Positions 1,925 through 42,757 of a DNA stretch of 64,000 nt are shown in pieces. The stretch is from Candidatus Sulfotelmatobacter sp. (GTDB taxonomy: Bacteria; Acidobacteriota; Terriglobia; Terriglobales; Acidobacteriaceae): the NCBI GenBank assembly GCA_036500765.1, contig DASYBM010000004.1:496001-560000 (forward strand), in the 5' to 3' direction. Each line of letters starts with the position of its first letter. The first letter of the stretch is position 1. Position numbers and translations under genes: made by a program. A model generated the notes under the pieces. It did not search any database. It was not told where the DNA came from and saw only the letters and a list, made by a program, of their open reading frames with translations.

Positions 1925-1926
1925 GG

Positions 1927-4691: not shown

Positions 4692-4787
4692 ATTTTTCCC
4701 CAATTGAAAAAAAATCGTTTGCTGCGGAATTGCGCGCGTGACTGCACATCGGTCGCAGGCCCTCGCCGGCTGGCGAAAATCAGCCCC

Positions 4788-5120: not shown

Positions 5121-5138
5121 GCAGTTTCGTCTTTCACT

Positions 5139-5794: not shown

Positions 5795-5801
5795 GCATGG
5801 C

Positions 5802-8544: not shown

Positions 8545-8580
8545 AGAGAACTCCTTTCCGGGAGAGGGCCGAAACTTCAT

Positions 8581-8736: not shown

Positions 8737-8757
8737 GAGAGTTTCTCCTTTCTCCGG

Positions 8758-8835
8758 CTAGGAATTCATCAGCCGGTATACGATCCACAAAATCCAGAGC
8801 ACACCGAGCGCGCAATTGACCAGGTACTGCGTCAT
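8758..8835 (-). CDS. Membrane micropeptide (25 aa)
   Basis: ATG at 8835 overlaps the upstream stop (ATGA). The peptide MTQYLVNCALGVLWILWIVY ends RLMNS and is nearly all one transmembrane helix. Tryptophan-rich single-span peptides in phages can be holin- or inhibitor-like, but nothing here proves a role. Confidence 0.5.
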   Translation of the reverse strand: MTQYLVNCALGVLWILWIVYRLMNS

Positions 8836-9119
8836 GCGGCCTCCAACTCGGCAGCAATCACCGCATCCATCCAGGCGCAGCGTTCGCGATAGGCTTTTTC
8901 GACGCATGCCGGCGCCGAGCAAATGTCGGGAGCGATCCAATGGCAGGGTGTGGTGAACTCCGCGACGCTTCCCGCCGGCATCAGAACGATGGGATATTCG
9001 TCGCCAAACGATTCGAGCAGGCCGGGGTCATCCGGAGTCGGCTCGTAGCGCATCGGGATCGCGCAGCTACGGCGATCGGTGCAACCGCAGAATTTGCAAT
9101 GCGCGGTTCTCGCTTTCAT
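8832..9119 (-). CDS. Cys-rich phage protein, probable zinc binder (95 aa)
   Basis: ATG at 9119 (MKARTAHCKFCGCTDRRSCA) overlaps the preceding stop by ATGA and is preferred to an upstream in-frame start. CKFCGC and the C-terminal CSAPACVEKAYRERCAW give two Cys clusters able to hold zinc. Acidic PTPDDPGLLESFGDEY lies between. Function unknown; it belongs to a run of Cys-rich products at 8832-10645. Confidence 0.7.
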   Translation of the reverse strand: MKARTAHCKFCGCTDRRSCAIPMRYEPTPDDPGLLESFGDEYPIVLMPAGSVAEFTTPCHWIAPDICSAPACVEKAYRERCAWMDAVIAAELEAA

Positions 9120-9355
9120 GCAGCCACCTCGAAGGGATTGGGAAGCGCCTGATGTTCTGGGCAGAAACAGAGGCCCTGGCGCGTGATCTTCAGGTGCGCA
9201 TCGCACATCGGCGTGTCGCAGTGGCCTGACTTCTTATTCGGCATCGGCCAATCGCAGAGCGCGACGGCCTGCTCTCCGCAAGCGCAGGCCTTGCGAAACG
9301 TGCGCAGAGCGTAGGCCATCAGGGAATCGTTAGCGATGAGAGTTGAGTCAGGCAT
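9116..9355 (-). CDS. Cys/His-rich phage protein (79 aa)
   Basis: Contains CACGEQAVALCDWP, GHCDTPMCDAHL and GLCFCPEHQ, at least eight Cys and three His spaced like a two-zinc finger. It overlaps both neighbours (8 bases upstream, 4 downstream). No enzyme motif is visible, so nucleic-acid or protein binding is the likeliest general role. Confidence 0.7.
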   Translation of the reverse strand: MPDSTLIANDSLMAYALRTFRKACACGEQAVALCDWPMPNKKSGHCDTPMCDAHLKITRQGLCFCPEHQALPNPFEVAA

Positions 9356-9779
9356 CCCGCCGCCTTTCCGTGCTCGGCTCTTCGCGCAGCGACAGCATTA
9401 GCGACCAGGGCCAGCGATAGCGAAACGCGGGATTGAACGATTCACTGCGGAGTTGCGTGTGGATCGCCAGCTCGTGCGGATAGTCGCGCTGTGGGCAGCG
9501 GCACATTTGTGGAACTGGCTGCGCATCGTGGCGAGCCAGATGAAGCAAACATTCTTCCTTCCCACAGGTGCGATGCACTTCATATTTCGGGAAGTTGGGT
9601 GGAGCGTAGACGGTGAAGGGCTGTCCGCAAACGACGCAATGCTGATCGAACTTAGGCTGCACCAGGCCGGGCTTGGGAGCAGGGAACTGGTGATCGCCAT
9701 CGTGAAATGCAGTCAGCGTGCAGCGCGGAAAACCGCATGGGGCAGGCGGTCCGAAGGGTTGGAGAGCGAAGGCGTTCAT
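9348..9779 (-). CDS. Cys-rich phage protein with zinc-finger-like core (143 aa)
   Basis: Opens MNAFALQPFGPPAPCGFPRC. Cys pairs appear in CGFPRC, CVVCGQPF, CGKEECLLHLARH and MCRCPQ. The CVVCGQPFTVYAPP... CGKEECL arrangement looks like a treble-clef or zinc-ribbon finger of the kind seen in phage HNH-related proteins, but the catalytic His residues of HNH are not evident. Coupled to both neighbours by short overlaps. Confidence 0.7.
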   Translation of the reverse strand: MNAFALQPFGPPAPCGFPRCTLTAFHDGDHQFPAPKPGLVQPKFDQHCVVCGQPFTVYAPPNFPKYEVHRTCGKEECLLHLARHDAQPVPQMCRCPQRDYPHELAIHTQLRSESFNPAFRYRWPWSLMLSLREEPSTERRRDA

Positions 9780-10162
9780 CGTGCCGCCCTTCCTTCCAAC
9801 GTTTGCGGCTCGCCTGTGTTTAGGAAACGGTCAATCGAGTCAGCCATATCTTTTGCCGGATCGGTCGCCGCATTCCCGTACTGATAACTGCGGAGGCCAT
9901 GCGATGCCGCTTCCAGCAATCGCCGCATCTCGTCCCTCTCGCCCAACTTCTTCAGCAGATCAAGCGAGTGAAGCGAGAAATAATCCATCAGCTTCAGTCC
10001 GAGTTTGTGGAACAGGTCAAAGGCTTGCCGCGTGTGCAGAAAAATTTCGAGCGGCAATCGTTCGCCCAAGTTCTCGTGCTTCGCGCGGAAAATCAGCTTG
10101 AAGCAATGCAATTCATTCTGGTCAGTCAGTTCGACCGAAATATTTTCCTCGTCTGTGCTCAC
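9776..10162 (-). CDS. Phage protein, unknown function (128 aa)
   Basis: Begins at GTG 10162, overlapping the preceding stop as GTGA, and ends with an ATGA junction. The product has a strand-rich N-terminus (ISVELTDQNELHCFKLIFRA) and a helical middle (FLHTRQAFDLFHKLGLKLMDYF, LDLLKKLGERDEMRRLLEAA). No Cys cluster, unlike its neighbours. Family not recognised. Confidence 0.65.
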   Translation of the reverse strand: MSTDEENISVELTDQNELHCFKLIFRAKHENLGERLPLEIFLHTRQAFDLFHKLGLKLMDYFSLHSLDLLKKLGERDEMRRLLEAASHGLRSYQYGNAATDPAKDMADSIDRFLNTGEPQTLEGRAAR

Positions 10163-10332
10163 GCCTGCCTCACTTTCCGGGACGCCGCCTTCGCTTTTGG
10201 CAAAAGTAATTTCGCTCCTCTTTTCTCGGCCTCACGCTGGGCGCGGCGCTCATCAAATTTGCGAAATTCTTCCAGAAGAAGCCGGTCTTTGTCCGATATG
10301 TTGTTGGCGTAGAACTCTTTGTGAGAAGTCAC
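10159..10332 (-). CDS. Basic small phage protein (57 aa)
   Basis: Starts at GTG 10332, which overlaps the previous TGA as GTGA and is preceded by GGAGGAACAAC, a strong ribosome site. The product VTSHKEFYANNISDKDRLLL turns into a highly charged helix (EEFRKFDERRAQREAEKRG) with a Lys-rich tail. A DNA-binding role is possible but not shown. Confidence 0.6.
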   Translation of the reverse strand: MTSHKEFYANNISDKDRLLLEEFRKFDERRAQREAEKRGAKLLLPKAKAASRKVRQA

Positions 10333-10478
10333 CGTTGTTCCTCCATTCCTTTCCGAGACGCCGCCGCCGCTGCCAACTGCGCCATAAACAGCGGATGCAG
10401 GTAGGTCTTCCACCCCATGTGCCATGCGTAGCACCAGCCGTCTTTTCGGGGACCGACGATTGAAACTGTGTCGCTCAC
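10329..10478 (-). CDS. Small phage protein ending in MEEQR (49 aa)
   Basis: GTG at 10478 overlaps the preceding stop (GTGA) and follows a GGAGGAACAAC ribosome site. The product VSDTVSIVGPRKDGWCYAWH is aromatic-rich and ends SRKGMEEQR. The same terminal peptide and ribosome site occur in the next gene upstream, reflecting a 26-bp direct repeat. Confidence 0.55.
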   Translation of the reverse strand: MSDTVSIVGPRKDGWCYAWHMGWKTYLHPLFMAQLAAAAASRKGMEEQR

Positions 10479-10500
10479 CGTTGTTCCTCCATTCCTTTCC
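10329..10500. repeat. 26-bp direct repeat at two gene junctions (10329-10354 and 10475-10500)
   Basis: The plus-strand copies start tcaccgttgttcctccattc. Each encodes the last residues KGMEEQR of one gene, its stop, and the ribosome site plus GTG of the next. A degenerate third trace (ttccgggacgccgcc) occurs near 10175. The arrangement suggests that start/stop cassettes were copied with the small genes. Confidence 0.85.
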
Positions 10501-10645
10501 GTGGGGCGGGGCCAGGGTTGCCTGTAAGCATCCACGGTGTTCGGCAAAACATGCATACCCACTGATTTGCTTGCCCAAAAATAGACCATCCAGTTGCAAT
10601 CCATTTGTGCGAACAAACGATAGCCGTCTGAGTTTGCATGTTCAT
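10475..10645 (-). CDS. Small zinc-ribbon-like phage protein (56 aa)
   Basis: ATG at 10645 gives MNMQTQTAIVCSHKWIATGW, followed by WVCMFCRTPW. CxH and CxxC about 20 residues apart form a plausible zinc ribbon. The end KGMEEQR and its overlap with the next GTG come from the 26-bp repeat. Upstream in-frame starts run antisense to nothing useful and were rejected. Confidence 0.6.
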   Translation of the reverse strand: MNMQTQTAIVCSHKWIATGWSIFGQANQWVCMFCRTPWMLTGNPGPAPRKGMEEQR

Positions 10646-10734
10646 CTGTCGTCCCTTTTCCGCTCCGGGCCTAGTTGCCCAGGACTCAGTTCCCGCCGAC
10701 TTGCATTTTTTGAAGGGGAACCCCGGTTTCAAAC

Positions 10735-11025
10735 TCAACTGCTTTTCCTTAACGCATTGCGGCTCGTCACCACCTGCAATCCGTCCGGGAATTCGACCAG
10801 GCAGGAGTTGCGTCCGCCGCGCACTAGAACTTTGCAGAACTGGCCTTTGCGCGTTCCGCCCAGCACGGGCATCCCGAGATACTTCGCCCAGCGAAACACG
10901 TAGAGCCGTACAGGCTTTGATTCCGCAATGACCATCAGCGCGATCCCCGGCCCCACTCCGGTGTAGAGCAAGACCTTGGCGAGGGCGCACAGCAAGAGCG
11001 AGAGGTTCAAGAGTTCGCGGTTCAT
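10735..11025 (-). CDS. Phage protein with hydrophobic N-terminus (96 aa)
   Basis: MNRELLNLSLLLCALAKVLL begins a likely membrane segment (residues 5-33). The soluble part reads LYVFRWAKYLGMPVLGGTRK and then QFCKVLVRGGRNSCLVEFPDG, strand-rich and SH3-like in rhythm. Its ATG overlaps the previous gene (ATGA). An 89-base stretch with no gene follows (10646-10734). Function unknown. Confidence 0.6.
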   Translation of the reverse strand: MNRELLNLSLLLCALAKVLLYTGVGPGIALMVIAESKPVRLYVFRWAKYLGMPVLGGTRKGQFCKVLVRGGRNSCLVEFPDGLQVVTSRNALRKSS

Positions 11026-11282
11026 GCCGGCAAGTTGCCTCGTCGACTTGAAAAAGTGATCGGCGCATCAGGGACTTGGCCAGCGAAAAACTTCTGCGAT
11101 TTCTCTTCGCGTCCAGTCACTTCGATGTACTTCACTTCGACGCGCGCCGAGTCGATGATCGTTTGCGCGGTCGAGCAAATCGCCTTCGCGCGCTCGATCT
11201 CCATTGGCTTCTCTGCGTCAGACAGCGCTTCCAGCGTGGCAAACAGATGGTCCCGCAGATCGTTCAACGTATTCTTCGCCAT
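11022..11282 (-). CDS. Phage protein, unknown function (86 aa)
   Basis: From ATG 11282: MAKNTLNDLRDHLFATLEAL, then IERAKAICSTAQTIIDSARV and EVKYIEVTGREEKSQKFF. It is a helical protein of a type I have seen repeatedly in phage early regions without known function. The ORF start overlaps the HNH gene by 65 bases; a ribosome-like GGAGAAACAGAGA lies just upstream of the ATG. Confidence 0.7.
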   Translation of the reverse strand: MAKNTLNDLRDHLFATLEALSDAEKPMEIERAKAICSTAQTIIDSARVEVKYIEVTGREEKSQKFFAGQVPDAPITFSSRRGNLPA

Positions 11283-11949
11283 TTCTCTGTTTCTCCTTGC
11301 GATTGATTTTGCGTTTAAGCGCGCCCGCCAGCTGGATGAGTTGAGGCAGCGGCGCCGGCAGCGTGTGCACCGTCGTCCGCGCCATGTGTTCCTGTGCCGA
11401 AACCAGTTCGAGATTGGACAGCGCGCAGTTCGCGTGATCGCCGTCTTTCCACCAAAGCCGCGCAATGCGCCAGTCGGGAAGCGGACCATTCGCTTGTTCC
11501 CAGATCAGCTTGTGTACAAACTCCCAGCCATCGATCGGCTTCGGGCATGGCTTGCCGGTTTTCAGCAGCAAATATCCAGGAGCCGCATCGCTGCCGCCTT
11601 GGTACCAGCGGAAGCTCCACAGCGGCATCGCATTGCGCGGAACCTGGCCTTTCTTGAACTGCGTCTCACGCATCCTGCCCGGTCCCCATCCGGGCATTCG
11701 CTTTCCCTTGTTTGCGGGGACGATGCCTTTTTTAAAACGAAAAGCCATGCCCACTTTGTCACCGCGACGCAGGCGGCACGCATCCGGACTCGCTAGATAG
11801 ATCGCGCTTTTGGAGAGTCCCTGTTTCTTCGCCTGGCCATATGTCGCCGGCACCGTCCTGTTGAGTCGCCGCGCCAACACCGGCGTCGAGATGTGTGGAT
11901 AAAACATTTGCAGCATCCAGTAATCCGCAGGCGTCCACGCGCGCACCAT
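11218..11949 (-). CDS. HNH endonuclease, phage/homing type
   Basis: 243 residues from ATG 11949, one base past the preceding stop. The N-terminus (WTPADYWMLQMFYPHISTPV, ARRLNRTVPATYGQAKKQGL) resembles a helix-turn-helix that reads DNA. The central block GRMRETQFKKGQVPRN is typical of this HNH subgroup. The catalytic part contains FVHKLIWEQANGPLPDW, KDGDHANCALSNLELVS. Such genes can be homing elements or phage recombination/packaging helpers. It is the second HNH gene of the prophage. Confidence 0.87.
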   Translation of the reverse strand: MVRAWTPADYWMLQMFYPHISTPVLARRLNRTVPATYGQAKKQGLSKSAIYLASPDACRLRRGDKVGMAFRFKKGIVPANKGKRMPGWGPGRMRETQFKKGQVPRNAMPLWSFRWYQGGSDAAPGYLLLKTGKPCPKPIDGWEFVHKLIWEQANGPLPDWRIARLWWKDGDHANCALSNLELVSAQEHMARTTVHTLPAPLPQLIQLAGALKRKINRKEKQRNGEEYVERSAGPSVCHAGSAV

Positions 11950-28736: not shown

Positions 28737-31277
28737 CTACAGTTTTGCATTTCGCAGGCGGAGGGCGTTGGCGATTACGCTGACGGAGCTGAAGCTCATG
28801 GCAGCGGCGGCGAAGATGGGGCTGAGCAGGATGCCGAAGAATGGGTAGAGGACGCCCGCCGCAAGCGGCACTCCGAGGGCGTTATAGATAAAGGCGAAGA
28901 AAAGATTCTGGCGAATGTTGCGCATCGTCGCCTGGCTGAGTTTGCGGGCGCGGAGGATTCCGGTGAGGTCGCCTTTGACGAGCGTGATGCCGCCGCTTTC
29001 CATGGCCACGTCGGTGCCGGTGCCCATGGCGACGCCCACGTTGGCTTGAACGAGAGCGGGAGCGTCGTTGATGCCGTCTCCAGCCATGGCGACGACTCTT
29101 CCCTGCTGCTGAAGTTTGCGGATGATCTCTAGTTTTCGTTCCGGTAGGACTTCGGCTTCGAATTCATCGATGCCGAGCCGTGAGGCAATCGTTTCGGCAA
29201 CGGATTTGTTGTCGCCGGTGAGCATCACGATGCGAAGGCCCGCGGCTTTGAGATCGTGCAGCGCGGAAGGCGTAGAACCCTTCAGCTGATCAGCTACTCC
29301 GAAGTTACCGACGTATTTGCCGTCAATGGCGATGAAGAGAACCGTGCTGCCAGGCCCGGCGCCCACAATCAGAACGCCTTTTTGCTGTGCTCCGACTTCG
29401 GTCATCAGGGCCATCGTGCCGATGGCGACGCGGCGGCCGTCGACGATGCCAGTGATTCCCTTCCCCGTTATCGAGCGAAACTCCTGCGGCTGCGAAAGTT
29501 GCATTCCGCGCTCAGCTGCAGCCGCCACGATGGCGCTGCCCAGCGGATGTTCACTGGCTTGTTCGAGGCTGGCGGCGAGGCGAAGAATCTCCGGATCATT
29601 CACCACAGAATCGGGCATGCTTATGACGCGCGGCTTGCCTTCGGTGAGCGTGCCGGTTTTATCGACGACGAGCGTGTCAACTTTCTCTAACGTTTCCAAG
29701 GCTTCGGCGTTTTTGATCAGGACACCGGCGTGGGCGCCGCGTCCGGTGCCGACCATGATGGCCATAGGCGTGGCGAGGCCGAGGGCGCAGGGGCAGGCGA
29801 TGATCAGGACTGCGACCGCGTTTACGAGCGCATGCGCGAGCCGTGGTTGCGGGCCGAAGAAGAACCACACGAGGAATGTGACGGCGGCGACGGCGACCAC
29901 AGTCGGCACGAACCAGACGGCAACGCGATCAGCTAATTGCTGGATGGGAGCGCGGCTGCGCTGGGCCTGGCCTACAAGTTGCACGATGCGCGCGAGCAAG
30001 GTTTCAGAGCCGACTCGTTCGGCTTGCATGACGAACGATCCGGCTGAGTTGATCGTCGCCCCGATGGCTTTGCTGCCCGGCTCTTTCTCGACGGGGATGG
30101 ATTCGCCCGTGATCATGGATTCGTCGACGGAGCTGCGGCCTTCGAGGACGGTGCCGTCGACGGGAATTTTCTCTCCTGGGCGGACGCGGAGGCGGTCGCC
30201 GGGCCGGACTGTTTCTAAAGAAACATCTTTTTCAGCGCCGTCGGGACCGACCAAACGCGCTGTTTTTGGGCTGAGGTCGAGCAGGGCGCGGATGGCGGCG
30301 CTGGTGCGGCTGCGGGCGCGAAGTTCCATGACCTGGCCGAGCAGAACAAGCGTGGTGATGGCGGCGGCGGCTTCGAAATAGACGTCGGGGTATCCGCCCA
30401 TGCCGCGGAGTGACGCGGGAAAAATCTGCGGCGCGAGGATCGCTACTACGCTGTACACATAGGCGACTCCGCTGCCCAGGCCGATCAGGGTAAACATGTT
30501 CGGGCTGCGGTTCACAAGCGAAGTCCAGAAGCGCTGGAAGAATGGCAGGCCGCACCAGAGGACGACCGGAGTGGCAAGGACCAATTCAAGCCAGGGCAGA
30601 CTCAGCCAAGGCTGGCCTAGCTTGGCGTTCACGATCGAGATGAAGTTGAGGTCGTTGAGAAGCTGAGGCCAAAGCATGCTTCCCATCGCGATCGCGAGTA
30701 GCGGTGTCGTGAGCACGACGCCGATCCAGAAACGCCGCGTCATGTCGACGAGTTCGGGATTTTCTTCTGGCGCCGCTGTGATGGTGCGAGGCTCGAGAGC
30801 CATGCCGCAGATGGGGCAGGAACCGGGGCCGGGGCGCACGATTTCAGGGTGCATGGGGCAGGTGTATTCGGTGCGCGTGGAGGCGACAGGGACGTCGGGC
30901 TCCAGGGCCATGCCGCAAGAGGGGCAGGCTCCGGGCTTCGGCTCACGGACCTCGGGGCACATGGGGCAGACGTAGGCGGGCGGGCTTCCGTCCGAAGATC
31001 GGACGTCAGACCTCGGACCTCGGACCTCGGACGTTGGCGCGATTTTCGCGGCATGCGAATGGGCGGGCTTCGCCGGCATGCCGAGCATCACCAAGTTGGA
31101 CGCGGGATTGTTCAGGTATGCGGCGGGATTGGTCTTGAATTTTTCCGCGCAGCTGGCGCAGCAAAAGTAATATTTTTCCCCGGCGTGTTCGTGGAAGTGC
31201 TTGGCCGTGGCGGGATTCACGCTCATTCCGCAGACGGGGTCTCGTTCGAGAGCCGGGGATGGGTTCGTGGAGGTCAA
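28737..31277 (-). CDS. copA: Copper-translocating P-type ATPase with YHS and HMBD domains
   Basis: 846 residues. Order: YHS domain (residues 12-58, [16 protein letters not shown] ... CCASCAEKF), a Ser/Arg linker, two heavy-metal-binding CPMxPE ... CPxCGMALEP domains (about 101-163), and a P1B ATPase core. Core motifs are TGES, the metal-binding CPC (495-497), the phosphorylated D539 in DKTGT, SEHPLG and [10 protein letters not shown]. It exports Cu(I) from the cytosol. There is no classic N-terminal HMA CxxC domain. The linker near residues 75-97 derives from a 7-bp repeat. A small HMA-like gene is divergent. Confidence 0.95.
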
Positions 31278-32772: not shown

Positions 32773-35700
32773 TTGTCGAATCAGCCGGCAAAGATCGGGA
32801 AATACGACATCCTGCGCCTGATCGGGCGCGGGGGCATGGGCGTGGTGTACGAGGCGCTGGATCCGAAGCTGGAGCGGCACGTTGCGATCAAGATGATCCT
32901 GGGGGCCACCCCGGGACTGCTGGCGAGATTCGACCGGGAGGCGCGGTCGACCGGCAGCTTACAGCACCAGAATATCGTCACCATCTACGAATTTGGCGAT
33001 CAGGACGGAAGCCCTTACCTGGTGATGGAGTATCTGGAGGGGATGAGTCTGGATGCCGCGCTCTCCTCGGGGCGGAAGCTAAGCCTGGCGACCAAACTCA
33101 GCATTTGCGTGGATGTGTGCAACGGGCTGAACTATGCGCACGACCGCGGCATTATTCATCGCGACATCAAGCCGGGCAACATCATGTTGCTGGAAGACGG
33201 CAACGTGAAGATCGTGGATTTTGGGATCGCGCGCATCGGGGATACCGGCGCCAGCCACACCGAGGTTGTGGGCAGCCTGCACTATATGTCGCCGGAGCAG
33301 TTTCAAAGTCAGCCGCTGGACCGGCGAACTGATATTTTTTCCACCGGGGTGGTTTTGTATCAAATGCTGACGGGCACCCTTCCGTTCCAGGCGTCGGGCG
33401 GCGAGGCGGCCGTAATGTATCGAATTATCCATGAAGACCCGGCGCCGCTGAGTTCCTACCTGCAAGATTATCCGGCGGAGTTAGATGAGATTCTGCGCAA
33501 AGTTCTGGCCAAGAACCGCGACCAGCGCTATACCAGCGCGCGCGATCTCTCGTTCGATCTGATGGCGGTGATGGAGCGGGAGAAGCACGAAGAAGTCGCC
33601 GCCTGGATGAAGCGGGCCGACCTGGCGATGCAGAGGACGGAGTGGAGCAAGGCCGAAGACTGCCTGCGGCAGGTGCTGAAGGTCGATAAGAACCATACTC
33701 CCGCGCACCAGTTGCTGAGTCATGTGCAGCTGCGGATTCGCGAGCAGAAGAAAGTCGATCAGGTTCGCCAGTTGCGGATGCAGGCGGACGAGGCGTTTCT
33801 GGAGCGGCGCTACGACGAAGCGTTGCGGACGATTGAGCAGGCCGTAGCCATCGACGAAACCAATAAGGATCTGATCAAACTTCGAGCCGCGATTCAGGAA
33901 GCGAAGTCGCGGGCGATGCGGTTCAAGCTGGCGCTGCGGCGGGCGGAAGAAGCGCACCGGGCAAGCGATCTGGAAGAAGCGAAGCTGGCGGTTCGGGAAG
34001 CGCTGGAGATCGATCCGACGGAGACGTCTGCGAAAGCGCTCCAAATGGTGATTCTGAAACAGGTGGAGGAACAGGATCGGCAGCAGCGGCTGCGAATGCT
34101 GTTTGACAATGCGAGGGACCAGATCTCGGCGCGGAATTTGACGGCCGCATTCCAAATGCTGAAAGAAGCGGAGCAGATGGACCCGGCGTCGGTGGAGTTG
34201 TATTCGCTGATGAAAGTGGTCAGCGCCGCGCGCGAAGAACAACTCCGCAAGCAGGAAATGGAAAGGTTTACTCGCGAGATCGAGGAGGCGCTGAACCGCG
34301 AGGACTATGCCGCAGCCGTCGCCGTAGCAAGTGAAGGATTGCAACGCTATCCGCGCGAACAGGGATTGTCGCGGCTGAAGGCACTGGCAGAGACGCAGCA
34401 GCAGCGGGCGCAGATGAAAGCGTATGCACGCGATCAATTTCTCGCCGCGAATGGACTGCTGGAATCCGGGAGATCGGGCGAGGCGTTGTCGGCGATTGAA
34501 AATGCGCTGCGTACGATTCCGGGGGACGCGCAACTGGAGAGGTTGCGAGGCATTGTCAAAGATCGGCTGGAGGCGGAGGAGGCGGAGGAGCGAAAGCGCC
34601 AATTGCTGGAGCACGCGCAGGAGTTGGTCGTAGCTGAACAGTTCGACCATGCGCTGCGGATTTTGGAGAGCGCGCAACGAGATTTTTCGGGCTCAGAAGA
34701 AGTTGACTTACTGCTGAACCGCGTGCGGGCCAAAGCGTCCACGGCGAAAGCGGTGCGGCACGCGCTGGAGCGGGCCCATCAACTTCTGAGTCAGGGCAAC
34801 GCGGAACAGGCGGTGCAGTTTCTCGAGGACAGGACGCTGGAGCTTTCCGATGCCCGCCTTTTCGATTTGCTGGAGCAGGCGCGGGAGCAGCGGGAACAAT
34901 TCCGAGCGGGATTGCAGCGAGCGATCGAGGAAGGCAAACGAATCCTCGAGACGCAGGGCGCGACGGAAGCGGCTCGACATCTGGCGGTGCAGCCGGCGAA
35001 ATATCGCGAGATCACCGCTTTCCGCGCGCTGGCGGAAGTGGTTGCGCATCGCGTGGCCTGGGAGGCGTTGGATCAGGAGTTGATGGGCAAGACAGATCCG
35101 GATTCGCAAGTTCGACTGGCCGAGGCGGCGCTGCGTGCCAATCCAGGCAATGAGGAGATCAAGAAGCGGCTGGTCACGGTGCGCAGCCGCAAGGAGCAGA
35201 TCGCCGCGCTTGCAGGAAAAGCGCGTGCGCTGGAGAGCTCAGGAGAATACACCGAAGCCGCGAAACAGTTGCAGTCATTGCGGCAGCTGTACTCACAGTA
35301 TCCCGGGCTGGAGTCGGAGATTCGGCGGTTGGAGCGTCTGGAAGAACAGCGGGTGCTGGACAGCGTGCGGCGGCAGCAAGAGCAGTTTCGTCTGGCCGTG
35401 CAGACTGCAATTGAAGAAGGCACGCGAATCCTGCATAGGCAAGGCGTTGCGGAAGCGACGAAATATCTGGGGGCGCAACCGGTACGGTACCAGGAGACGC
35501 CGGACTTTAAGACTTTTTCTGAGATGGTGCTCAGGCGCGCCGCTTGGGAGGCGCTGGACCGCGACCTTGCCGGTAAAACGGACGCGGATGAGCAGATTCG
35601 TTTAGCCGAGGCGGCACTGCGCCAGAGCCCGGCGAACGAAGAAATCAAGAAAAAACTGGCGACGCTGCGCAGCCGCAAGGATCGAATCAATGCGATTGCC

Positions 35701-38700
35701 GCCAAGGCCCGGACGCTGGAAGAGGCTGGGCACTATGGGGACGCCGCGGGAGAACTAGAACAGCTGCGACAGATTCATGCTCAATATCCCAATATCGATT
35801 CCGAAATTGCCCGGCTCGGGCGACTCGAAGAGCAAAGGCGGGCGGAGGAGGCGCGGCGCGAACTAGATCTCTTCCAGTTGGGCGTGCGCAAGGCGATCGA
35901 GGAAGCCAGGGGGATTCTCGAGGGAGAGGGAGCTGTAGAGGCGGGGCGGCATCTGGCGGCGCAGCCGGCGAGATATCGCGAGGTGACGGAATTTCGGACG
36001 CTGGCAGAAATTGTGGCGGCTCGGATGGCCAGCGAAGCTCTGGAACAGGAATTGTTGCGCAAGCCTGATCCGGAGTCGCAGGTTCGTGCGGCGGAGGCGG
36101 CGCTCGGAGAAAATCCAGGGAACGAGGCGATTCAGGCGATCCTCACGGCGGCGCGGAGCCGGCGATATCGGATTCGGGCGATCACAGAGAAAGCGGGCAA
36201 ACTGGAAGCCTCGCGGCAATATAGCGAAGCCGCGAAGCAACTGGAGCAGGTGCGCCAGATTCTTCCGCAGTATCCCAATCTTGAATTGGAGATTCGTCGG
36301 CTGGAACGGCTCGAAGAGCAGCGGGCGCTGGAAGTTGCCCGGCGCGAAGCGGAGGAATTTCAAGCGGCGGTGCGAAGCGCGGCGCAAGAAGGCCAGCGCA
36401 TTCTGCAAGAGCGCGGAGTCGCCGAGGCTGAAACATACTTGCGAACGCAAGCGGCAAAATACCGCGAGACGCCGGAGTTGCGGGGATTGGCCGAAATAGT
36501 AGCCAGGCGCGCGGCCTGGGAAGCGCTCGACCGCGATCTGGCGGGCAATACCGACCCCGAAGCGCAGATTCGTTTAGCCGAAGGGGCGCTGCGCGAGAGT
36601 CCGGGAAATGAGGAGATCAGAAAAAGACTGGCAGCGCTGCGCGACCGCGAGGAGCAGATCAATGCAATTGCAGAAAAAGTTCGCGCTCTGGAAGAGTCGT
36701 GGCGATATGGAGATGGCGCGAAGGAGTTGCAGCGGCTGCGGCAGCTTTATCCTCAATATCGCAATATCGATTCGGAAATCCAGCGACTGGAGCGGCTGGA
36801 CGAACAGCAGCGGGCGGAGGAAGCACGGCGGGCGGCCAAGCGATTCGAGGCGAGCGTGCGCGCGGTGGTGGATGAAGGCAAAAGTATCCTACAAAAACAG
36901 GGAGCATTGGAGGCGGCCCGATATTTGAGCGCGCAGCCGGCAAGCTATCGCGAGGTGGTGGAGTTCAGTGGACTCGCGGAAGTAGTTGCGCAAAGCGTCG
37001 CCAGCGCTGCGCTGGAGCAGGAACTTTTGCGCCAGCCCGATCCGGAGGCACAGGTCCGGATGGCGGAAACGGTGGTTCGAGAAAATCCGGGAAATGAGGA
37101 CTTAAAGAAGAAGCTGGCGGCAACGCGCAGCCGACGGGATCGGATTCAAGCGATTGCGCAGAAGGCGCGGACGCTGGAAGGCTCGCAGCAATACGGTGAA
37201 GCCGCGAAAGAGCTGGAGCGATTGCGTGAGCTTCATCCCGGGTATCCCAATCTCGAGTCGGAGATTCGGCGGCTGGAGCGACTCGAGGAGCGGCGGGTGC
37301 TGGAGGTTGCCCGGCGCGAAGCGGAGCAGTTTCAAGCGGCGGTACGAGGCGCAATCGAGGAAGGCCAGCGAATTCTACAGACGCGCGGAGGAGCGGACGC
37401 AGCGCGTTATCTGACCACGCAAACGCAGAAGTGTCGGGAGACCCCGGAGTTCCAGGTGTTTGCCGCGGCGGTCGCCAAGCGCGCCGCCTGCGAGGCTCTC
37501 GACCATAACTTAGCGGCGAGCTTCGATCCGGAGGCGCAAGTTCGGGCGGCGGAGATCTCGTTCCGAGAGAATCCGGGCAACGAGGAGATCAAGAAAAGAT
37601 TTGCTGCACTACGCAGTCGCCGGGACCAAGTGGAAGCCATTGCGGAAAAAGCGCGCGCGCTGGAAGGCTCGCAGAAATACGGAAGGGCCGCGAAGGAACT
37701 TCAGCGCATGCGCCAGGTCTATGCCGAATATCCGGGTCTGGAGTCGGAGATCCGGCGGTTGGACGGACTGGAAGAAGAATCGAAACGACCGCGGCGCAAG
37801 GTCGAAACCGCAAAGCTGAAAGCTGAGACGCCGGTGTTCGAGCCCCCCGCCCATCTTGAGACAACCGAGAAAGAACTGGGGGCCACGGTCATTATGGGCC
37901 GGCTTCCTGCGGCGAAGGCGCAGACCGATCTGGCGAAGGCGACGCCGACGGAGGAAGGGCGAGCATTTTCGGTGGTTCCGGGCGCGGCAGAAGAAGTTCT
38001 CCCGAGTCCGCGCTTTTCGCCGAAGATCTGGCTGATCGCCGCCGCGGTGGTTGTGGTGTTGGCGAGTATCGGGATCGTGTATCGAATTTCCAGCCGACCC
38101 GCCGATGTTCTGGTCGGCGTGAATCCCACTCCGGAGGACAGCACGGTGGTGATCGATGGCTCGGCGTGCCCGATTCCCTGTCAGCGGCGATTGTCGGTAG
38201 GAGAGCATAGGGTGATGGCAGACCACGCCGGCTACAAGCGCGCTATCGAAACGATTCAAGTTAAGAGTGGAGCCTCGCCGAATTTCTCCGTGAATCTCGC
38301 GCCCATCAATCTTGCCCCAGGCGAAGCATCTACCGGGAATGTTTCAACTCGGAATGGTGGGCAAACGACCGCAACGAAATCCGGCGGACAGGATCGCAAT
38401 GCGAGAGTTCCGGCCTCACATGATTCCGCAACGGCGGCTGCATCTATAAGTCAAGGAAGCACAGGCGAGAGTCCGACGATCTCGGCCAGGGTAGTTTCGC
38501 CGGCAGCGAACGTTCCGGCAACGCTGTCCGCAACGCAGCCAAACCCTCCAGCGACTCCGCCGAAGGCGACGGAAGTGATTGACTCGGAAGGGCCGGAATG
38601 GGCGAAGGTCGAGTCTACGAATGATATGGCTGCGCTTCAGGGATTTCTAAACAGCTTCCCAAAAGGAAAAGATGCACAGCAAGCGCAGTCGAAGTTGGAC

Positions 38701-39150
38701 AAACTGGTCGCCGGGAGCACATCGGAAGCGGAACTTAAAGCATTTTCCACCCGCTTTCCGAATACTCCGGCCGGGGCAGCGGCAAAAAGCCGGACGGAAT
38801 CGATGGCGGCAGAAGCGGGGAAAAAAGAACAGGATCGCCAAGCCATCCTGGGAATGTTGCAGCAGTATCGAACCGCCTTTGAGAGCCTCGACTTGAAGGC
38901 TCTCAGAGGAATCTATCCAGAGTGGGCATCGCGCAAGGCGACCCAGAACAAGTTCAAGAACACCGCCTCGGTAAAGGTCACCTTAAACTATGAAGCGCCG
39001 AACATAAACGGCGAACAAGCTAATGTCAGAGTCACTCAAAAAGTGGACTGGAAACAAAAGGGCGGAGCGCAAAGCTCCGATGAAACCCCGCCGCTCACCT
39101 GGCAGTTGATTAAGAAAGATGGGCGCTGGCTGATTCAAGCCGGACCGTGA
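32773..39150 (+). CDS. Giant Ser/Thr protein kinase with six tandem 162-aa repeats and PEGA domain
   Basis: 2125 residues; TTG start at 32773 with AGGA upstream. The kinase domain (residues 10-270) has the Gly loop IGRGGMGVVYE, VAIK (K40), HRD (D131) and DFG (D149), so it should be active. Residues 275-700 are TPR-like helical repeats. Six 162-residue units follow (708-1679). Then a short linker, one membrane span (about 1752-1772, KIWLIAAAVVVVLASIGI), a PEGA domain (VGVNPTPEDSTVVIDGSACP), a Ser/Thr-rich linker and a C-terminal NTF2-like part (LKALRGIYPEWASR). The kinase is cytosolic; PEGA and the tail are outside. Target unknown. Confidence 0.93.
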   Translation: MSNQPAKIGKYDILRLIGRGGMGVVYEALDPKLERHVAIKMILGATPGLLARFDREARSTGSLQHQNIVTIYEFGDQDGSPYLVMEYLEGMSLDAALSSGRKLSLATKLSICVDVCNGLNYAHDRGIIHRDIKPGNIMLLEDGNVKIVDFGIARIGDTGASHTEVVGSLHYMSPEQFQSQPLDRRTDIFSTGVVLYQMLTGTLPFQASGGEAAVMYRIIHEDPAPLSSYLQDYPAELDEILRKVLAKNRDQRYTSARDLSFDLMAVMEREKHEEVAAWMKRADLAMQRTEWSKAEDCLRQVLKVDKNHTPAHQLLSHVQLRIREQKKVDQVRQLRMQADEAFLERRYDEALRTIEQAVAIDETNKDLIKLRAAIQEAKSRAMRFKLALRRAEEAHRASDLEEAKLAVREALEIDPTETSAKALQMVILKQVEEQDRQQRLRMLFDNARDQISARNLTAAFQMLKEAEQMDPASVELYSLMKVVSAAREEQLRKQEMERFTREIEEALNREDYAAAVAVASEGLQRYPREQGLSRLKALAETQQQRAQMKAYARDQFLAANGLLESGRSGEALSAIENALRTIPGDAQLERLRGIVKDRLEAEEAEERKRQLLEHAQELVVAEQFDHALRILESAQRDFSGSEEVDLLLNRVRAKASTAKAVRHALERAHQLLSQGNAEQAVQFLEDRTLELSDARLFDLLEQAREQREQFRAGLQRAIEEGKRILETQGATEAARHLAVQPAKYREITAFRALAEVVAHRVAWEALDQELMGKTDPDSQVRLAEAALRANPGNEEIKKRLVTVRSRKEQIAALAGKARALESSGEYTEAAKQLQSLRQLYSQYPGLESEIRRLERLEEQRVLDSVRRQQEQFRLAVQTAIEEGTRILHRQGVAEATKYLGAQPVRYQETPDFKTFSEMVLRRAAWEALDRDLAGKTDADEQIRLAEAALRQSPANEEIKKKLATLRSRKDRINAIAAKARTLEEAGHYGDAAGELEQLRQIHAQYPNIDSEIARLGRLEEQRRAEEARRELDLFQLGVRKAIEEARGILEGEGAVEAGRHLAAQPARYREVTEFRTLAEIVAARMASEALEQELLRKPDPESQVRAAEAALGENPGNEAIQAILTAARSRRYRIRAITEKAGKLEASRQYSEAAKQLEQVRQILPQYPNLELEIRRLERLEEQRALEVARREAEEFQAAVRSAAQEGQRILQERGVAEAETYLRTQAAKYRETPELRGLAEIVARRAAWEALDRDLAGNTDPEAQIRLAEGALRESPGNEEIRKRLAALRDREEQINAIAEKVRALEESWRYGDGAKELQRLRQLYPQYRNIDSEIQRLERLDEQQRAEEARRAAKRFEASVRAVVDEGKSILQKQGALEAARYLSAQPASYREVVEFSGLAEVVAQSVASAALEQELLRQPDPEAQVRMAETVVRENPGNEDLKKKLAATRSRRDRIQAIAQKARTLEGSQQYGEAAKELERLRELHPGYPNLESEIRRLERLEERRVLEVARREAEQFQAAVRGAIEEGQRILQTRGGADAARYLTTQTQKCRETPEFQVFAAAVAKRAACEALDHNLAASFDPEAQVRAAEISFRENPGNEEIKKRFAALRSRRDQVEAIAEKARALEGSQKYGRAAKELQRMRQVYAEYPGLESEIRRLDGLEEESKRPRRKVETAKLKAETPVFEPPAHLETTEKELGATVIMGRLPAAKAQTDLAKATPTEEGRAFSVVPGAAEEVLPSPRFSPKIWLIAAAVVVVLASIGIVYRISSRPADVLVGVNPTPEDSTVVIDGSACPIPCQRRLSVGEHRVMADHAGYKRAIETIQVKSGASPNFSVNLAPINLAPGEASTGNVSTRNGGQTTATKSGGQDRNARVPASHDSATAAASISQGSTGESPTISARVVSPAANVPATLSATQPNPPATPPKATEVIDSEGPEWAKVESTNDMAALQGFLNSFPKGKDAQQAQSKLDKLVAGSTSEAELKAFSTRFPNTPAGAAAKSRTESMAAEAGKKEQDRQAILGMLQQYRTAFESLDLKALRGIYPEWASRKATQNKFKNTASVKVTLNYEAPNINGEQANVRVTQKVDWKQKGGAQSSDETPPLTWQLIKKDGRWLIQAGP
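34894..37809 (+). repeat. Six gapless tandem 486-bp (162-codon) repeats
   Basis: Unit starts at 34894, 35380, 35866, 36352, 36838 and 37324, each exactly 486 bases apart (EQFRAGL, EQFRLAV, DLFQLGV, EEFQAAV, KRFEASV, EQFQAAV). Each unit then has QG..EA..YL..QP, R..E, a LAEAALRANPGNEEIKKRL-like block and an ALE...Y..AAKELQ.LRQ segment. Units 2-3 and 4-5 resemble each other as pairs. Confidence 0.97.
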
Positions 39151-39187: not shown

Positions 39188-42100
39188 CTAGAACTGAATT
39201 CTGGCGGAGAACTGTAGTTGCCGCTGGAATGCTCCCGGAGCCGTAGTTGAAATCAAGCCTGCGTTCCCGCCGTCAACCACAGGATTCGGCAAACCGAGAT
39301 TTACTTTGTTGAAGGCGTTGAAAGCGTCAGCGCGCAGCCGCAACGAGACGCGTTCGGTAATAGCGAAATCTTTCATGATGGAAAGATCGCTCTGGAAGAA
39401 TTGCGGTCCGCGAAGCGAATTTCTGCCGGCGTTTCCGATTTGCCCGCATCCGGGACGTTGCCACGGACCGCTGGCCTGTCCGGGCTGGGGATTGCCGCTG
39501 GAATCGAGCCCACAGCTTGCAGTTGGATCCGTTCCAGTTTGCTGGTAATAGGGCAGCGGTCCGCTGGCAATCGTGTAGTAGTCCTGGCGGTTGCCGGTGA
39601 TGGAGACGTGACCTACTTCGTTGGGACGACAGGGTGGGATATTGACGCCCTGATCGTTGAAGTCGGTGGGGCAGTTCGAGTACTGCGGCGTGAAAGGCAA
39701 TCCGCTGTACCAGGTGGTAAGGGCTTGAATTGACCAACCGCCAAGTGCCGCATCGGCGGCACGACCTATGTCATGCAAAAAAGGGCGGCCGCGCCCAATG
39801 GGCAGGTTCCAGACGTTGGCCATGGTGAAATTGTGGCGCCGGTCGAAGGTCCCCGGGCCGTAGCCGATGGCCGGCTGAATGGCGTAGTAATTGCTGTCGA
39901 AGTCGAACACTTTGGAATAAATGTAGTTGGCGAGAATGCTATATCCACCAGCGAAACGCTTGTTGAATTTCGCTTGCAGGGATTCGTAGTGATTGGAGGC
40001 ATCGTTGCCGAAATAGTTGACGGGCTGATTCCAAGGCGCGAGCGCGGTACGCTCAAATTCCTTCGCCAGGCAGTAATTGGGATTGGACGCGATGATCTTG
40101 CACGAGAAGCCAGCCGGCGTGGTCCCGTTAGAGCCTACAGTCAGGACGTTGGGCTGAACCACTCCCTGCACGGTTGCCTGGTTCAGATTGTAGTAGGACG
40201 CGGCAGCCAGACTGATGGGGCCTGTGCCCGCGGAGGGATCGGTGAGAACGTGCGTTCCCTTATTGCCAATGTAGGCGACCTCGAAATACATGTTGGGCGA
40301 CAGTTGATGCTGCACGGTGAGGTTCCAGGCGTCCACGGTGGGGACCCGCAGGGTGGCCGGCAAGGCGTTCAGAGCTGTGGCGAACTCGGGTGCGGCTCCG
40401 GTTGCGGAAGTAAGGGCGCAATTGTTGGAATCGAAGAGATTGGTTTGATTGCAGAGATCTTGTACGGTAAAGGAAGCGGTTGGCCGCGATATTGAGGTCG
40501 GGAGAGCAAAGAAGTTCGTGCACGGCTGGCCGGTTCCGGTGGCCCCCAGAAAGCATCCGTTGCGGTTGATCAAGAGGGAGGACACGGGCGGGTTCTGGGT
40601 GGCGGCGATTCCGAACAAAGACCCGCTGTAGCCGACGTCGAAGGTGCGTCCGAAGCCGGCACGGATTACGGTTTTGCTCCCGGCGAGATAGGCGAAGCCG
40701 ATTCGCGGTCCGAAATTCTTATATGTATTCTGGACGTTCCCTTGCAGATTTACGCCCGAAGTCCCGGCCACGTTAATGGTTGCTGCGCTAATGCCCGGCA
40801 GTGCATTGTTGTGAATCAGAAGGAAGCCTCCTGCTCCATCCTGATTCACATATTGCGGGAAGTAAATCTCCCATCGTAAACCGTAGTTGACGGTCAGACG
40901 GGAATTGATCCGCCAAGTATCCTCTCCGTAGAAAAAAGCCCGCCTTTGGCGTTCCGCGGCGTTGAACGAAACCGGATTCGCAGGATCGCTGTAGGTGCGA
41001 GAGAAGTAGTCAAGTTGGCCGCTGACGAAAGCCGAAGGACCGGCGAACTCAAGGTATCCTGAACGGCTATTGGCGCTATCCAGACGGAAATTCTGAATGT
41101 AGCGGAAATCGCCGCCCCAGCGGATGGTGTGACGCCCGGCCAGTCGGGTCCAATTGTTTACGAATTGAAGCTGCTGTTCACGCTCCCGCAGCGGACAGTT
41201 ACAGTTATTCAGAGCCGAGGAGTAACCGAATTCCCAATTGGGCGTAGTCGCCGTGCTGATAACGTGAACGTCGGGCAGGTTCGACGAGTAGAGTGAGTCG
41301 TTCAGATCGGGCAGAACGCTTTGCACGGGATAGGTCCCGAAATCAAGGGCATCCAGGCTAAGGTGATAGCGGAAGAAGCCAAACCGAAAATCCGTCAGCA
41401 GATTGGGACTGAACGAATACGAGAATCCTGAGGCCAGGCTTTGGTTGTAGGTGCGAGCGCGACCGGCGAAGCTATCTGGATTTGTGCCAGGGCCACCGGC
41501 GATCCCAAAGGCGGGTGCGCCGTCCTGACGGAAGATGTCATAACTGTAGCGGGCAAACAGTTTCAACCGCTGCGCGGGATTGTAGTCCAACCGCAGATCG
41601 GAGGTATCGCTGTTCAGCCCTTCGGTTCCGCTCGTCCGGTACTGCTGCGAGCCGACGTTTGGTTCCGGCAAGAGAGTCAACAAGGCGGCGGTCGCCGGAT
41701 TCGCGGTCAGGTTCGTACCGCCGCCGTAATCGGACAAGTTGCAGGTCCCGGGGGCCGCATTGGAATCACAGGAATTGTGCATGGTTTGGGTGGGCACATT
41801 GAGAAGCGTGGTGGCGCCGGAAGCGCCACGTTCTCCGCGATAGTCGCCAAAGAAAAAAAGGCGTTCCTTAATGATGGGTCCACCCAGGGATGCGCCGAAC
41901 TGGTTTCGCTTCACCGTGAGATTGTTGAGCTGAGGAGAAAGAAATGGACTTGAGGCTTCGCCCACCGCAGACTCGCTATAGTCGAAGAGGCTGCCATGCA
42001 GCGAGTTCGACCCGGACTTGGTCTGAACCGTGACGACTCCGGCGGTTGCTTCGCCGAATTCCGCACTGTAATTTGAGGTGGTGATCTTCATTTCCTCGAC

Positions 42101-42757
42101 CGCGTCTTGATTCGGATTGATGACCACGATGCCTTCTAGGGGGTCTCGGTTGTCGGTGCCGTCCAGTTGGTAAGCGGTTCCGCTGAAAAGTTGGCCATTG
42201 ACATTGATGTATGTGCCCTGTTGCGGATTCTGCGCGCGGGAGAGGACCTGGGTCACAGGAATCGCGCCGGGAGCGAGTACCTCGAGATTGGACGTGTTCT
42301 GTTCATGCAGCGGCAAGTCTGCAATCTGCGTGCGATCGAGGATGGTCGCGACGTCGGTTCGGTCGATTTTCAATACGCTAACGTCGGCCGCGCTCCCGGT
42401 AACGATGTCAGACTTACTGCCCGGAACAAGTTTAGGATTTACTCCGGTCGAATTGTCGGCGTACACGGTGACTTGCGAATTTTGAAAGGTTTTGTATCCG
42501 CCCGCTTCAATTTTCAAACTGTACTCGTCAGGAGGTACGTCGTTCAAAGCGTAAAATCCCGAACTGTCGGTGACCGTGGTAAATCTGGTGCCTTTTCCAA
42601 CCGATGTGATGGTTACTTTGGCGCCGCTGATCGGCTTTCCGGAGAGATCGGTGAGTGCACCCTTAACGTTTCCGTAGACAGCTTGCGCTGAGGTGAATGG
42701 GCCCGTGGCGACTACCATTGCAACCAATAGCACCGCAGTTAGGGACGGGAGTCTCAT
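39188..42757 (-). CDS. TonB-dependent receptor with N-terminal carboxypeptidase-regulatory domain (Oar-like)
   Basis: 1189 residues; ATG 42757 has AAGGAG upstream. A signal peptide (LTAVLLVAMVVATGPFTSAQ) precedes a CarboxypepD_reg domain (YGNVKGALTDLSGKPISGAK), a plug (VLDRTQ-like segments IADLPLHEQ, NVNGQLFSGTAYQLDGTDNR) and a large beta-barrel that ends in aromatic F (FSARIQF). It sits in the outer membrane. It imports large molecules, perhaps polysaccharide or peptides. No TonB box is identified. It converges on the kinase gene. Confidence 0.92.
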   Translation of the reverse strand: MRLPSLTAVLLVAMVVATGPFTSAQAVYGNVKGALTDLSGKPISGAKVTITSVGKGTRFTTVTDSSGFYALNDVPPDEYSLKIEAGGYKTFQNSQVTVYADNSTGVNPKLVPGSKSDIVTGSAADVSVLKIDRTDVATILDRTQIADLPLHEQNTSNLEVLAPGAIPVTQVLSRAQNPQQGTYINVNGQLFSGTAYQLDGTDNRDPLEGIVVINPNQDAVEEMKITTSNYSAEFGEATAGVVTVQTKSGSNSLHGSLFDYSESAVGEASSPFLSPQLNNLTVKRNQFGASLGGPIIKERLFFFGDYRGERGASGATTLLNVPTQTMHNSCDSNAAPGTCNLSDYGGGTNLTANPATAALLTLLPEPNVGSQQYRTSGTEGLNSDTSDLRLDYNPAQRLKLFARYSYDIFRQDGAPAFGIAGGPGTNPDSFAGRARTYNQSLASGFSYSFSPNLLTDFRFGFFRYHLSLDALDFGTYPVQSVLPDLNDSLYSSNLPDVHVISTATTPNWEFGYSSALNNCNCPLREREQQLQFVNNWTRLAGRHTIRWGGDFRYIQNFRLDSANSRSGYLEFAGPSAFVSGQLDYFSRTYSDPANPVSFNAAERQRRAFFYGEDTWRINSRLTVNYGLRWEIYFPQYVNQDGAGGFLLIHNNALPGISAATINVAGTSGVNLQGNVQNTYKNFGPRIGFAYLAGSKTVIRAGFGRTFDVGYSGSLFGIAATQNPPVSSLLINRNGCFLGATGTGQPCTNFFALPTSISRPTASFTVQDLCNQTNLFDSNNCALTSATGAAPEFATALNALPATLRVPTVDAWNLTVQHQLSPNMYFEVAYIGNKGTHVLTDPSAGTGPISLAAASYYNLNQATVQGVVQPNVLTVGSNGTTPAGFSCKIIASNPNYCLAKEFERTALAPWNQPVNYFGNDASNHYESLQAKFNKRFAGGYSILANYIYSKVFDFDSNYYAIQPAIGYGPGTFDRRHNFTMANVWNLPIGRGRPFLHDIGRAADAALGGWSIQALTTWYSGLPFTPQYSNCPTDFNDQGVNIPPCRPNEVGHVSITGNRQDYYTIASGPLPYYQQTGTDPTASCGLDSSGNPQPGQASGPWQRPGCGQIGNAGRNSLRGPQFFQSDLSIMKDFAITERVSLRLRADAFNAFNKVNLGLPNPVVDGGNAGLISTTAPGAFQRQLQFSARIQF

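Follow-up and report, generated by a model that had tools for sequence, protein, structure and literature searches.

Planctomycetota have Ser/Thr kinases that carry long tandem TPR arrays, usually together with one membrane span, and the TPRs of these kinases are mostly predicted to be periplasmic (PMC11032199, available part). In PknG, a TPR domain following the kinase domain couples signal and substrate (PMC8546545, available part), and a Clostridium thermocellum kinase of 1826 aa bears six TPRs and GGDEF (PMC1262709, available part). On the growth of such arrays, Bjorklund et al. 2006 reported that repeat proteins duplicate several domains together, often in mid-array, that two-domain steps are the commonest overall, and that TPR is among the families that mostly grow singly, domain by domain (PMC1553488, available part). 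Here we describe a 2125-aa Ser/Thr kinase, encoded in a 64,000-nucleotide stretch of acidobacterial DNA (the window), in which a much longer unit is repeated six times between the kinase domain and the membrane span.

Results

The features of the gene are as follows (window coordinates).

32773 to 39150, + strand: open reading frame of the 2125-aa Ser/Thr kinase (TTG start, AGGA at -11 to -8)
32803 to 33540, + strand: protein kinase domain, residues 11-256 (Pfam PF00069, E=1.8e-54, and motifs)
33559 to 34869, + strand: cytosolic TPR stretch of ~56-aa repeats, residues 263-699 (56-aa profile, Pfam TPR families)
34870 to 35355, + strand: unit 1, residues 700-861 (self-comparison, alignment)
35356 to 35841, + strand: unit 2, residues 862-1023 (self-comparison, alignment)
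35842 to 36327, + strand: unit 3, residues 1024-1185 (self-comparison, alignment)
36328 to 36813, + strand: unit 4, residues 1186-1347, an apparent chimera (codon permutation)
36814 to 37299, + strand: unit 5, residues 1348-1509 (self-comparison, alignment)
37300 to 37785, + strand: unit 6, residues 1510-1671, counterpart of V4, the last unit of the ortholog G021 (tree, 95/93)
37867 to 37902, + strand: conserved EKELGATVIMGR patch, residues 1699-1710, in the interval between array and span (three-ortholog alignments)
38026 to 38082, + strand: single membrane span, residues about 1752-1770 (hydropathy)
38119 to 38304, + strand: PEGA domain (Pfam PF08308)
38818 to 39147, + strand: C-terminal alpha+beta domain, NTF2-like candidate (AF2, Foldseek, DUF4440)

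TTG also occupies the aligned start position in the orthologs G021 and G028, and the RNA fold of the start region is unremarkable (z 0.71). Judged by profile (PF00069 positions 1-255 of 263 are covered) and by the catalytic motifs HRDIKPGN, DFG and VAIK visible in its sequence, the protein is a Hanks-type Ser/Thr kinase; it scores 310.1 bits, over residues 9-308 only, against the cut-off of 450 for the NCBIfam equivalog of PASTA kinases (Stk1/PknB). A 56-aa repeat profile built from four paralogs finds seven matching stretches from residue 285 to 659. Beyond the array, the strict pattern of the EKELGATVIMGR patch is present in three of 30 frames, and the span reaches a hydropathy of 2.65 over 19 residues, against 1.23 for the runner-up segment of the protein. 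PF08308 is matched at E 0.0002 with the whole protein and 1.3e-05 with the segment alone, and PEGA presumably lies across the membrane from the kinase. The C-terminal domain was modelled at a pLDDT of 61-84 (blocks of ten). Foldseek returned nothing for it at E<=0.001 (top entry 3rob, 0.0017, TM by target 0.50), and NTF2-like-titled or CaMKII hub entries appear from 0.0085, above that threshold. Pfam gives DUF4440 at E=0.067 for the tail in the window and TcpC at 0.012 in G028, with no match in G021. Kinase and PEGA (by Pfam), TPRs and one span (by hydropathy) bear out the predicted order of domains, while the model and profile comparisons weakly suggest that the tail is NTF2-like. Function was not read from gene neighbours, since those examined differ among the loci: in the window the gene is preceded by a P-type metal ATPase and followed by a TonB-type outer-membrane protein, G021 has a downstream ORF without Pfam match, and G028 has an upstream sulfate permease.

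The array comprises residues 700-1671 (34870-37785), in six ungapped units of 162 aa. The original prediction of a phased repeat was recovered independently, with six copies at five 486-nt spacings; the length it gave was right, but its limits (34894-37809) sit 24 nt off the in-frame ones. Compared with itself over residues 270-1740, the protein shows peaks at offsets of 162, 324, 486, 648 and 810, with a score of 2123 at 162 and 131 at the best non-peak offset. Since similarity at offset 162 starts at ~701 and stops at ~1511, the units number six whole ones. MAFFT places no gap among the six, nor when five ortholog units are added (11 units). The wide divergence noticed at the outset is likewise real: between units, amino-acid identity is 48.1-63.0% and DNA identity 60-70%, with first, second and third codon positions 70, 76 and 46% identical. 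dN/dS is 0.10-0.29 in 10 of 12 unit pairs (the pairs where it was calculable), ratios that are rough because dS is 0.92-3.22. By these sequence measures, the units have diverged yet are under purifying selection.

Whether the units are an ordinary known repeat such as TPR has a divided answer. TPR_14 matches eight of the 11 units and TPR_19 four (E<=0.01); in unit 1 the match lies in the last third (columns 112-145), with a score of 23.9 against a cut-off of 23.5. However, no Pfam family covers the whole 162-aa unit, and the 34-residue period typical of TPRs does not run through the array, whose period is 162. An AlphaFold2 model, for which alignments A1, A3 and A4 were not used (in A1 and A3 because whole units slipped register) and A6 served only to be inspected, is all helical (pLDDT 88, pTM 0.33), with six main helices per unit and helices of 44-45 residues spanning the unit boundaries; at that pTM the model does not give the overall shape and rigidity of the array. 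The six predicted helices may be read as three TPR-like hairpins, with second helices starting at 193, 239, 289, 355, 401, 451 and 517 in the model; in units 2 and 3 the starts of these short helices are spaced by 46, 50 and 66 residues. TPR proteins are the top structural neighbours in both structural comparisons, VIA-align giving 5omp at 1.6 A over 63 residues (Z 8.7) and 2nc9 at 1.5 A over 56 (Z 7.9), values that the tool rates as middling for helical repeats, most rows having very large rmsd and the model a pTM of 0.33. The idea that the unit forms a new fold class was dropped, because TPR proteins lead the structural comparisons and TPR_14 occurs in most units; the units are not a new repeat class.

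A PDB search with the array alone found no relative (best E 0.75), and the unit profile retrieved designed helical repeats first (best E 7.7e-05), followed chiefly by coiled-coil constructs. Division of the unit into three equal TPRs of 54-56 aa is unsupported by sequence, and the three-hairpin reading depends on the model. The 56-aa TPR profile has one match in the array, in unit 3, above the shuffles (9.8 bits; the highest of 200 shuffled arrays scores 6.3), all remaining matches being <=5.0 bits, and profile-profile comparison gives a probability of 2.1% (columns 115-162). Predicted helices and hydropathy support the proposal that a helical segment of solenoid type lies between the kinase and the membrane span. 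A rod or spacer function is plausible.

Within the genus, the orthologs G028 and G021 have one and four unit copies and the window protein six; no further multi-unit array of this kind was found among 45 genus genomes, and the 972-aa array as query against genome contigs matched a single locus, which is identical with the G021 contig. Among 28 family kinase frames, which had been picked because of matches to window queries, the best stretch reaches <=1e-5 against the unit profile in 27, one frame (L070) has two strong copies and the rest at most one. These matches mark the unit as native to an acidobacterial kinase-TPR-membrane-PEGA family. The combination of domains, not recognised as a known one at first, is not unique. 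Pkinase, TPR and PEGA occur within one frame in four of five hand-picked relatives (the fifth has TPR and PEGA, its kinase being in a frame that an N run severs), and a clear membrane span (hydropathy >=2.0) is found in 26 of 29 frames. L024, a sister kinase in the same genome, shares kinase, TPRs, unit-like segment, span and PEGA with the window protein, but has a single unit copy, six residues longer over the matched part. The distance from kinase motif to span is 723-931 residues in 20 of the 26 clear-span frames and 1623 in the window protein; in L061, at 1635, a 36-aa-period ER/K-rich stretch lies ahead of the span, and two other kinases have a 314-aa offset repeat in place of the 162-aa units.

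Discussion

We consider it probable, with moderate confidence, that in this membrane-anchored Ser/Thr kinase the array is an expanded stretch of the cytosolic TPR arm, which has grown by crossover and acts as an elongated arm. The elongated array would distance the kinase from the inner membrane and bear an interaction surface, and the PEGA/NTF2-like tail would receive a signal across the membrane from the kinase. Identity to G021 declines from the kinase (95.4%) through early TPR (84.9%) and late TPR (75.9%), with 78% in unit 1 and 57-66% in later counterpart units, as expected if the distal units act mainly as an arm. The foremost alternative is a docking array, in which every unit offers a surface for a protein to bind, so that added units raise binding capacity rather than reach. 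The TPR-type signal and helices, the purifying selection on the units and their 23 columns invariant across the 11 window and ortholog units (nine of them charged) fit a binding role, as does the PknG TPR domain, which couples signal to substrate phosphorylation (PMC8546545, available part). However, divergence is faster in the distal units than in the TPR stretch and in unit 1, and the long member L061 has its ER/K-rich stretch, devoid of a TPR groove, over the equivalent interval. Docking is a serious possibility that we hold to be somewhat unlikely. A broader, speculative version of the arm reading is that stalk length itself evolves, lineages lengthening the arm by 162-aa units, an ER/K-rich helix or a 314-aa duplication, and that the arm is a recombination-tuned spacer setting the reach of the kinase from the membrane.

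Growth by a two-unit step of 324 aa, as originally suggested, is supported by the four units of G021 against six in the window. The similarity pattern behind the earlier pairing of neighbouring units is real, but alternation describes it better, with units 1, 3 and 5 alike and 2, 4 and 6 alike. In a tree of window (U) and G021 (V) units, U6 groups with V4 (95/93) and U3 with U5 and V3 (99/97). Unit 4 is an apparent chimera: its first ~27 codons are unit-6/V4-like and the remainder mostly unit-2/V2-like, a contrast reached in 13 of 20,000 codon permutations (one of 12 contrasts tested) and less marked at the amino-acid level (184 of 10,000). Codons 31-60 do not discriminate, and half-unit trees place unit 4 without strong resolution. 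A chimeric unit 4 matches what an unequal crossover adding two in-phase units would leave. From a four-unit ancestor in the order 1-2-3-4, a misaligned crossover of unit 4 with unit 2 would give 1-2-3-(4/2)-3-4, gaining exactly 324 residues with the phase unchanged. The placing of TPR among families that mostly grow singly (PMC1553488, available part) speaks against the model. Plain tandem duplication of units 3-4 into 5-6, without recombination between different units, accounts for the copy-number difference of two, for the likeness of 3 to 5 and 4 to 6, and for the closing 29 codons of unit 4, which are not notably unit-2-like (V3 is closest at 77%, then U2 at 72% and V2 at 64%). It predicts a unit 4 nearest unit 6 throughout, whereas codons 61-100 are nearer U2 and V2, and we regard it as unlikely. 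On the sequence pattern, unit copies were apparently added stepwise through recombination among copies.

Selection was originally held to fix the unit at exactly 162 residues, as in a molecular ruler. In keeping with this, the 11 units at 42-78% identity contain no indel, and sister kinases are also steady. Their units are longer in 16 of 16 non-orthologous frames, by exactly six residues in 12 and by 12-20 in four (frames matching at least 140 positions; the count leaves aside the ortholog L018 and one weak stretch that lies upstream in L068, E 0.05). The claim is unsupported, because the adjoining 436-residue TPR stretch, 58.7% identical to that of G028, aligns with it just as free of gaps, and unit length varies from clade to clade by 6-20 residues, so exact phasing needs no special selection on length; the 314-aa repeat used instead in two other kinases also speaks against a ruler, which we consider improbable. 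Unit length is steady inside a clade, yet not fixed at 162, and recombination between homologous units alone preserves the phase. That the copy number is an assembly artefact is barely credible: although the G021 sequence is a MAG contig that is short and has an N run in the TPR stretch, the window genome is in 17 contigs and 99.3% complete, and units sharing just 60-70% DNA identity are too dissimilar to have been collapsed or falsely expanded.

The locus offers a view of intragenic repeat expansion in a bacterial signalling protein, with intermediates (one, four and six units) and a likely crossover scar, in which the arm between kinase and membrane is lengthened by whole structural units. 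It also draws attention to very large transmembrane kinases of Acidobacteriota that form a family and whose cytosolic TPR arm varies in length; we found no description of this family in the available parts of the literature searched. Should the length of the arm tune reach or the choice of substrate, these orthologs would form a natural length series for testing it. PknG has, to our knowledge, no multi-unit array, membrane span or PEGA. Like the window protein, it has a kinase domain followed by a TPR domain (PMC8546545, available part). The C. thermocellum kinase is similarly very large and TPR-bearing but differs in its C-terminal half, and the word PEGA is absent from its description (PMC1262709, available part). 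The available part of PMC11032199 holds no mention that we found of a 162-aa composite unit. The Planctomycetota kinases it describes resemble the window protein in combining a kinase with long tandem TPR arrays and usually one membrane span; their TPRs are mostly predicted to be periplasmic, whereas those of the window protein, lying between kinase and span, are cytosolic. Compared with TPR proteins as surveyed in the available part of PMC1553488, the window protein differs in its step of growth, which is one or two long composite units, the genus-mates having one, four and six copies.

Results

The six 162-residue repeats in phase that the original prediction described in a long Ser/Thr kinase are real and well observed. 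They run without a gap over residues 700-1671, and in a self-comparison of the protein, offset 162 scores 2123 and offset 324 scores 1968; outside the multiples of 162, no offset scores above 131. The kinase, its array and the neighbouring genes are as follows:

32773-39150, forward strand: reading frame of the kinase, 2125 residues, TTG start
34870-37785: six-unit array, residues 700-1671, gap-free 162-residue units
28737-31277, reverse strand: metal-type P-type ATPase with YHS and heavy-metal-binding domains
39188-42757, reverse strand: outer-membrane beta-barrel protein with a carboxypeptidase-regulatory-like domain

Units are 48-63% identical in pairwise amino-acid comparison and fall into two sets, 1/3/5 and 2/4/6. 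Codon agreement among them is 70%, 76% and 46% at positions 1, 2 and 3, and dN/dS, calculable for all but two of the 12 pairs compared, lies at 0.10-0.29 in those ten, ratios that are rough given a dS of 0.92-3.22. The genome holds 23 Pkinase matches above the family cut-off, among which the array kinase is the longest frame (2126 codons; the next has 1635).

We conclude that the units are divergent TPR-like repeats. Residues 263-699, upstream of the array, form a TPR array with repeats of about 56 residues (seven profile hits, residues 285-659). The original prediction had set the units apart from ordinary repeats such as TPR, which holds only in part: across the six window and five ortholog units, Pfam TPR_14 matches 8/11 and TPR_19 4/11 (E<=0.01), the match in unit 1 lying at columns 112-145, its last third, whereas the 56-residue profile finds a single hit in the array, in unit 3 (9.8 bits), that outscores all 200 shuffled arrays (maximum 6.3 bits). 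An AlphaFold2 model of units 1-4, for which the alignment was completed solely by units 5-6 and the four units of the G021 ortholog (V1-V4), gave a mean pLDDT of 88.3 and a pTM of 0.33, so that its local helices are credible and its overall shape is not. Modelled helices of 44-45 residues bridge all three unit boundaries, and behind each come five further helices, alternately short and long and beginning and ending with a short one, a series that may represent three unequal hairpins. The high-ranking structures in both Foldseek and VIA-align include TPR proteins (P58(IPK), FKBP51, Cyp40, APC/C subunits and consensus TPRs); local fits are 1.5-1.6 A across 56-63 residues, and Z is at most 9.3.

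Close copies of the unit among 45 genus genomes (profile search, 1e-12) occur only in the window genome (6), G021 (4) and G028 (1); 14 genomes have any match, the other 11 with one each. The G021 contig is identical to public record QIAK01000301.1, an Acidobacteria gp1 MAG. Scoring at most nine candidates per genome in samples of larger groups, we found matches in 20/398 family-level genomes (1e-14) and 4/396 phylum-level genomes (1e-10). The matches listed from the 398 family genomes include no array besides those of the window and G021. One sister-kinase frame, G391:C208:3245-3517, carries a single TAG within its match.

Unit length is steady inside clades, at 162 residues here and mostly six more in sister kinases, and differs between them. 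Among 28 kinase frames, fetched through matches to window queries, the best unit stretch reaches 1e-5 or better in 27, and only L070 has two strong stretches. Matches cover at least 140 positions in 17 frames: the G028 ortholog unit is exactly 162, and the remaining 16 exceed the unit model by 6 residues in 12 (L019-L022, L024-L030 and L074, in the matched part of a single unit), 12 in two, 13 in one and 20 in one. Several shorter matches (about 100 positions) have no extra residues. Against G028, no gap falls in the 436 residues of the TPR stretch (58.7% identity) or in unit 1 (54.9%), whereas the kinase domain has one and the part C-terminal to the array 17; the late TPR stretch is likewise gap-free against G021 (166 residues, 75.9%). 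The absence of indels is therefore common to the whole helical arm. Selection for exactly 162 residues, as originally proposed, is not supported in view of this equally gap-free neighbour and the 6-20 additional residues in sister kinases; exact spacing is expected because recombination of homologous units preserves phase.

Discussion

The simplest history of unit number is 1 to 4 to 6, in which unit 4 would have crossed over with unit 2 at the last growth step. The tree joins unit 6 with V4 (support 95/93) and units 3 and 5 with V3 (99/97), groups units 2 and 4 with V2 (88/92) without inner resolution, and splits odd from even units weakly (78/84). Along unit 4, DNA identity over codons 1-30 is 82% to unit 6 and 77% to V4 (58% to unit 2, 62% to V2), codons 31-60 do not discriminate between candidate parents, and codons 61-100 are 78-79% identical to units 2/V2 against 67-68% to units 6/V4. 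In a codon permutation test, 13/20,000 permutations were as extreme as this main contrast, one of 12 run; two narrower unit-4 contrasts gave 28 and 232, and the remaining eight 1276 to 11326. A contrast of unit 1 against V1/V3 (75) may mark another exchange. The unit-4 contrast is weaker on amino acids (184/10,000). We moderately favour an array that represents the expanded TPR arm of a membrane-anchored kinase, lengthened by the unit 4/unit 2 crossover, with slightly less confidence because unit 4 ends in 29 codons that are nearest V3 (77%; unit 2 72%, V2 64%, unit 6 64%, V4 58%).

Since the one membrane span lies C-terminal to the array, a cytosolic position is expected for the kinase, the TPRs and the units, and an outside position for PEGA and the tail. 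The tail, modelled at pLDDT 61-84 and without a Foldseek match at E<=0.001, is probably NTF2-like. Identity to G021 declines along the protein, from 95.4% in the kinase through 84.9% then 75.9% in the TPRs and 78% in unit 1 to 57-66% in later units. Between array and span (window 37867-37902), an EKE(L/V)GAT(V/R)I(M/I)G patch is kept in 3/3 orthologs within an otherwise indel-rich linker, the strict pattern occurring in 3/30 frames; its threonine is possibly an autophosphorylation or FHA-docking site.

Kinase motif and span lie 723-931 residues apart in 20 of 26 frames (29 counted, three lacking a clear span; G021, split by a run of N, left out), the exceptions being 1084, 1095, 1183, 1453, 1623 (window) and 1635 (L061). 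L061, a 2268-residue sister kinase encoded in G022 (frame 4213-11016), has three near-identical copies of a 36-residue ER/K-rich repeat between TPRs and span. Kinases L062 (frame +10206) and L070 (frame -3718), from other genera, show a 314-residue offset repeat of about 31% identity, which in L070 takes in two copies of the unit. We read this as an arm between kinase and span that varies in length by several routes. That the units serve as a docking array rather than a length-setting arm is a serious rival.

An account of the acidobacterial kinase-TPR-membrane-PEGA family was not found in the literature searched. Repeat proteins usually grow by duplicating several domains at once, often mid-array, and TPR is placed among families mostly adding one domain (PMC1553488). 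A kinase survey includes an 1826-residue kinase with six TPRs (PMC1262709), in Planctomycetota the TPRs of a kinase number as many as 15 and are for the most part predicted to be periplasmic (PMC11032199), and PknG is a known kinase with TPRs (PMC8546545). Kinases with TPR arrays are, on these sources, already known, and the window array is an expanded form of such an arrangement.
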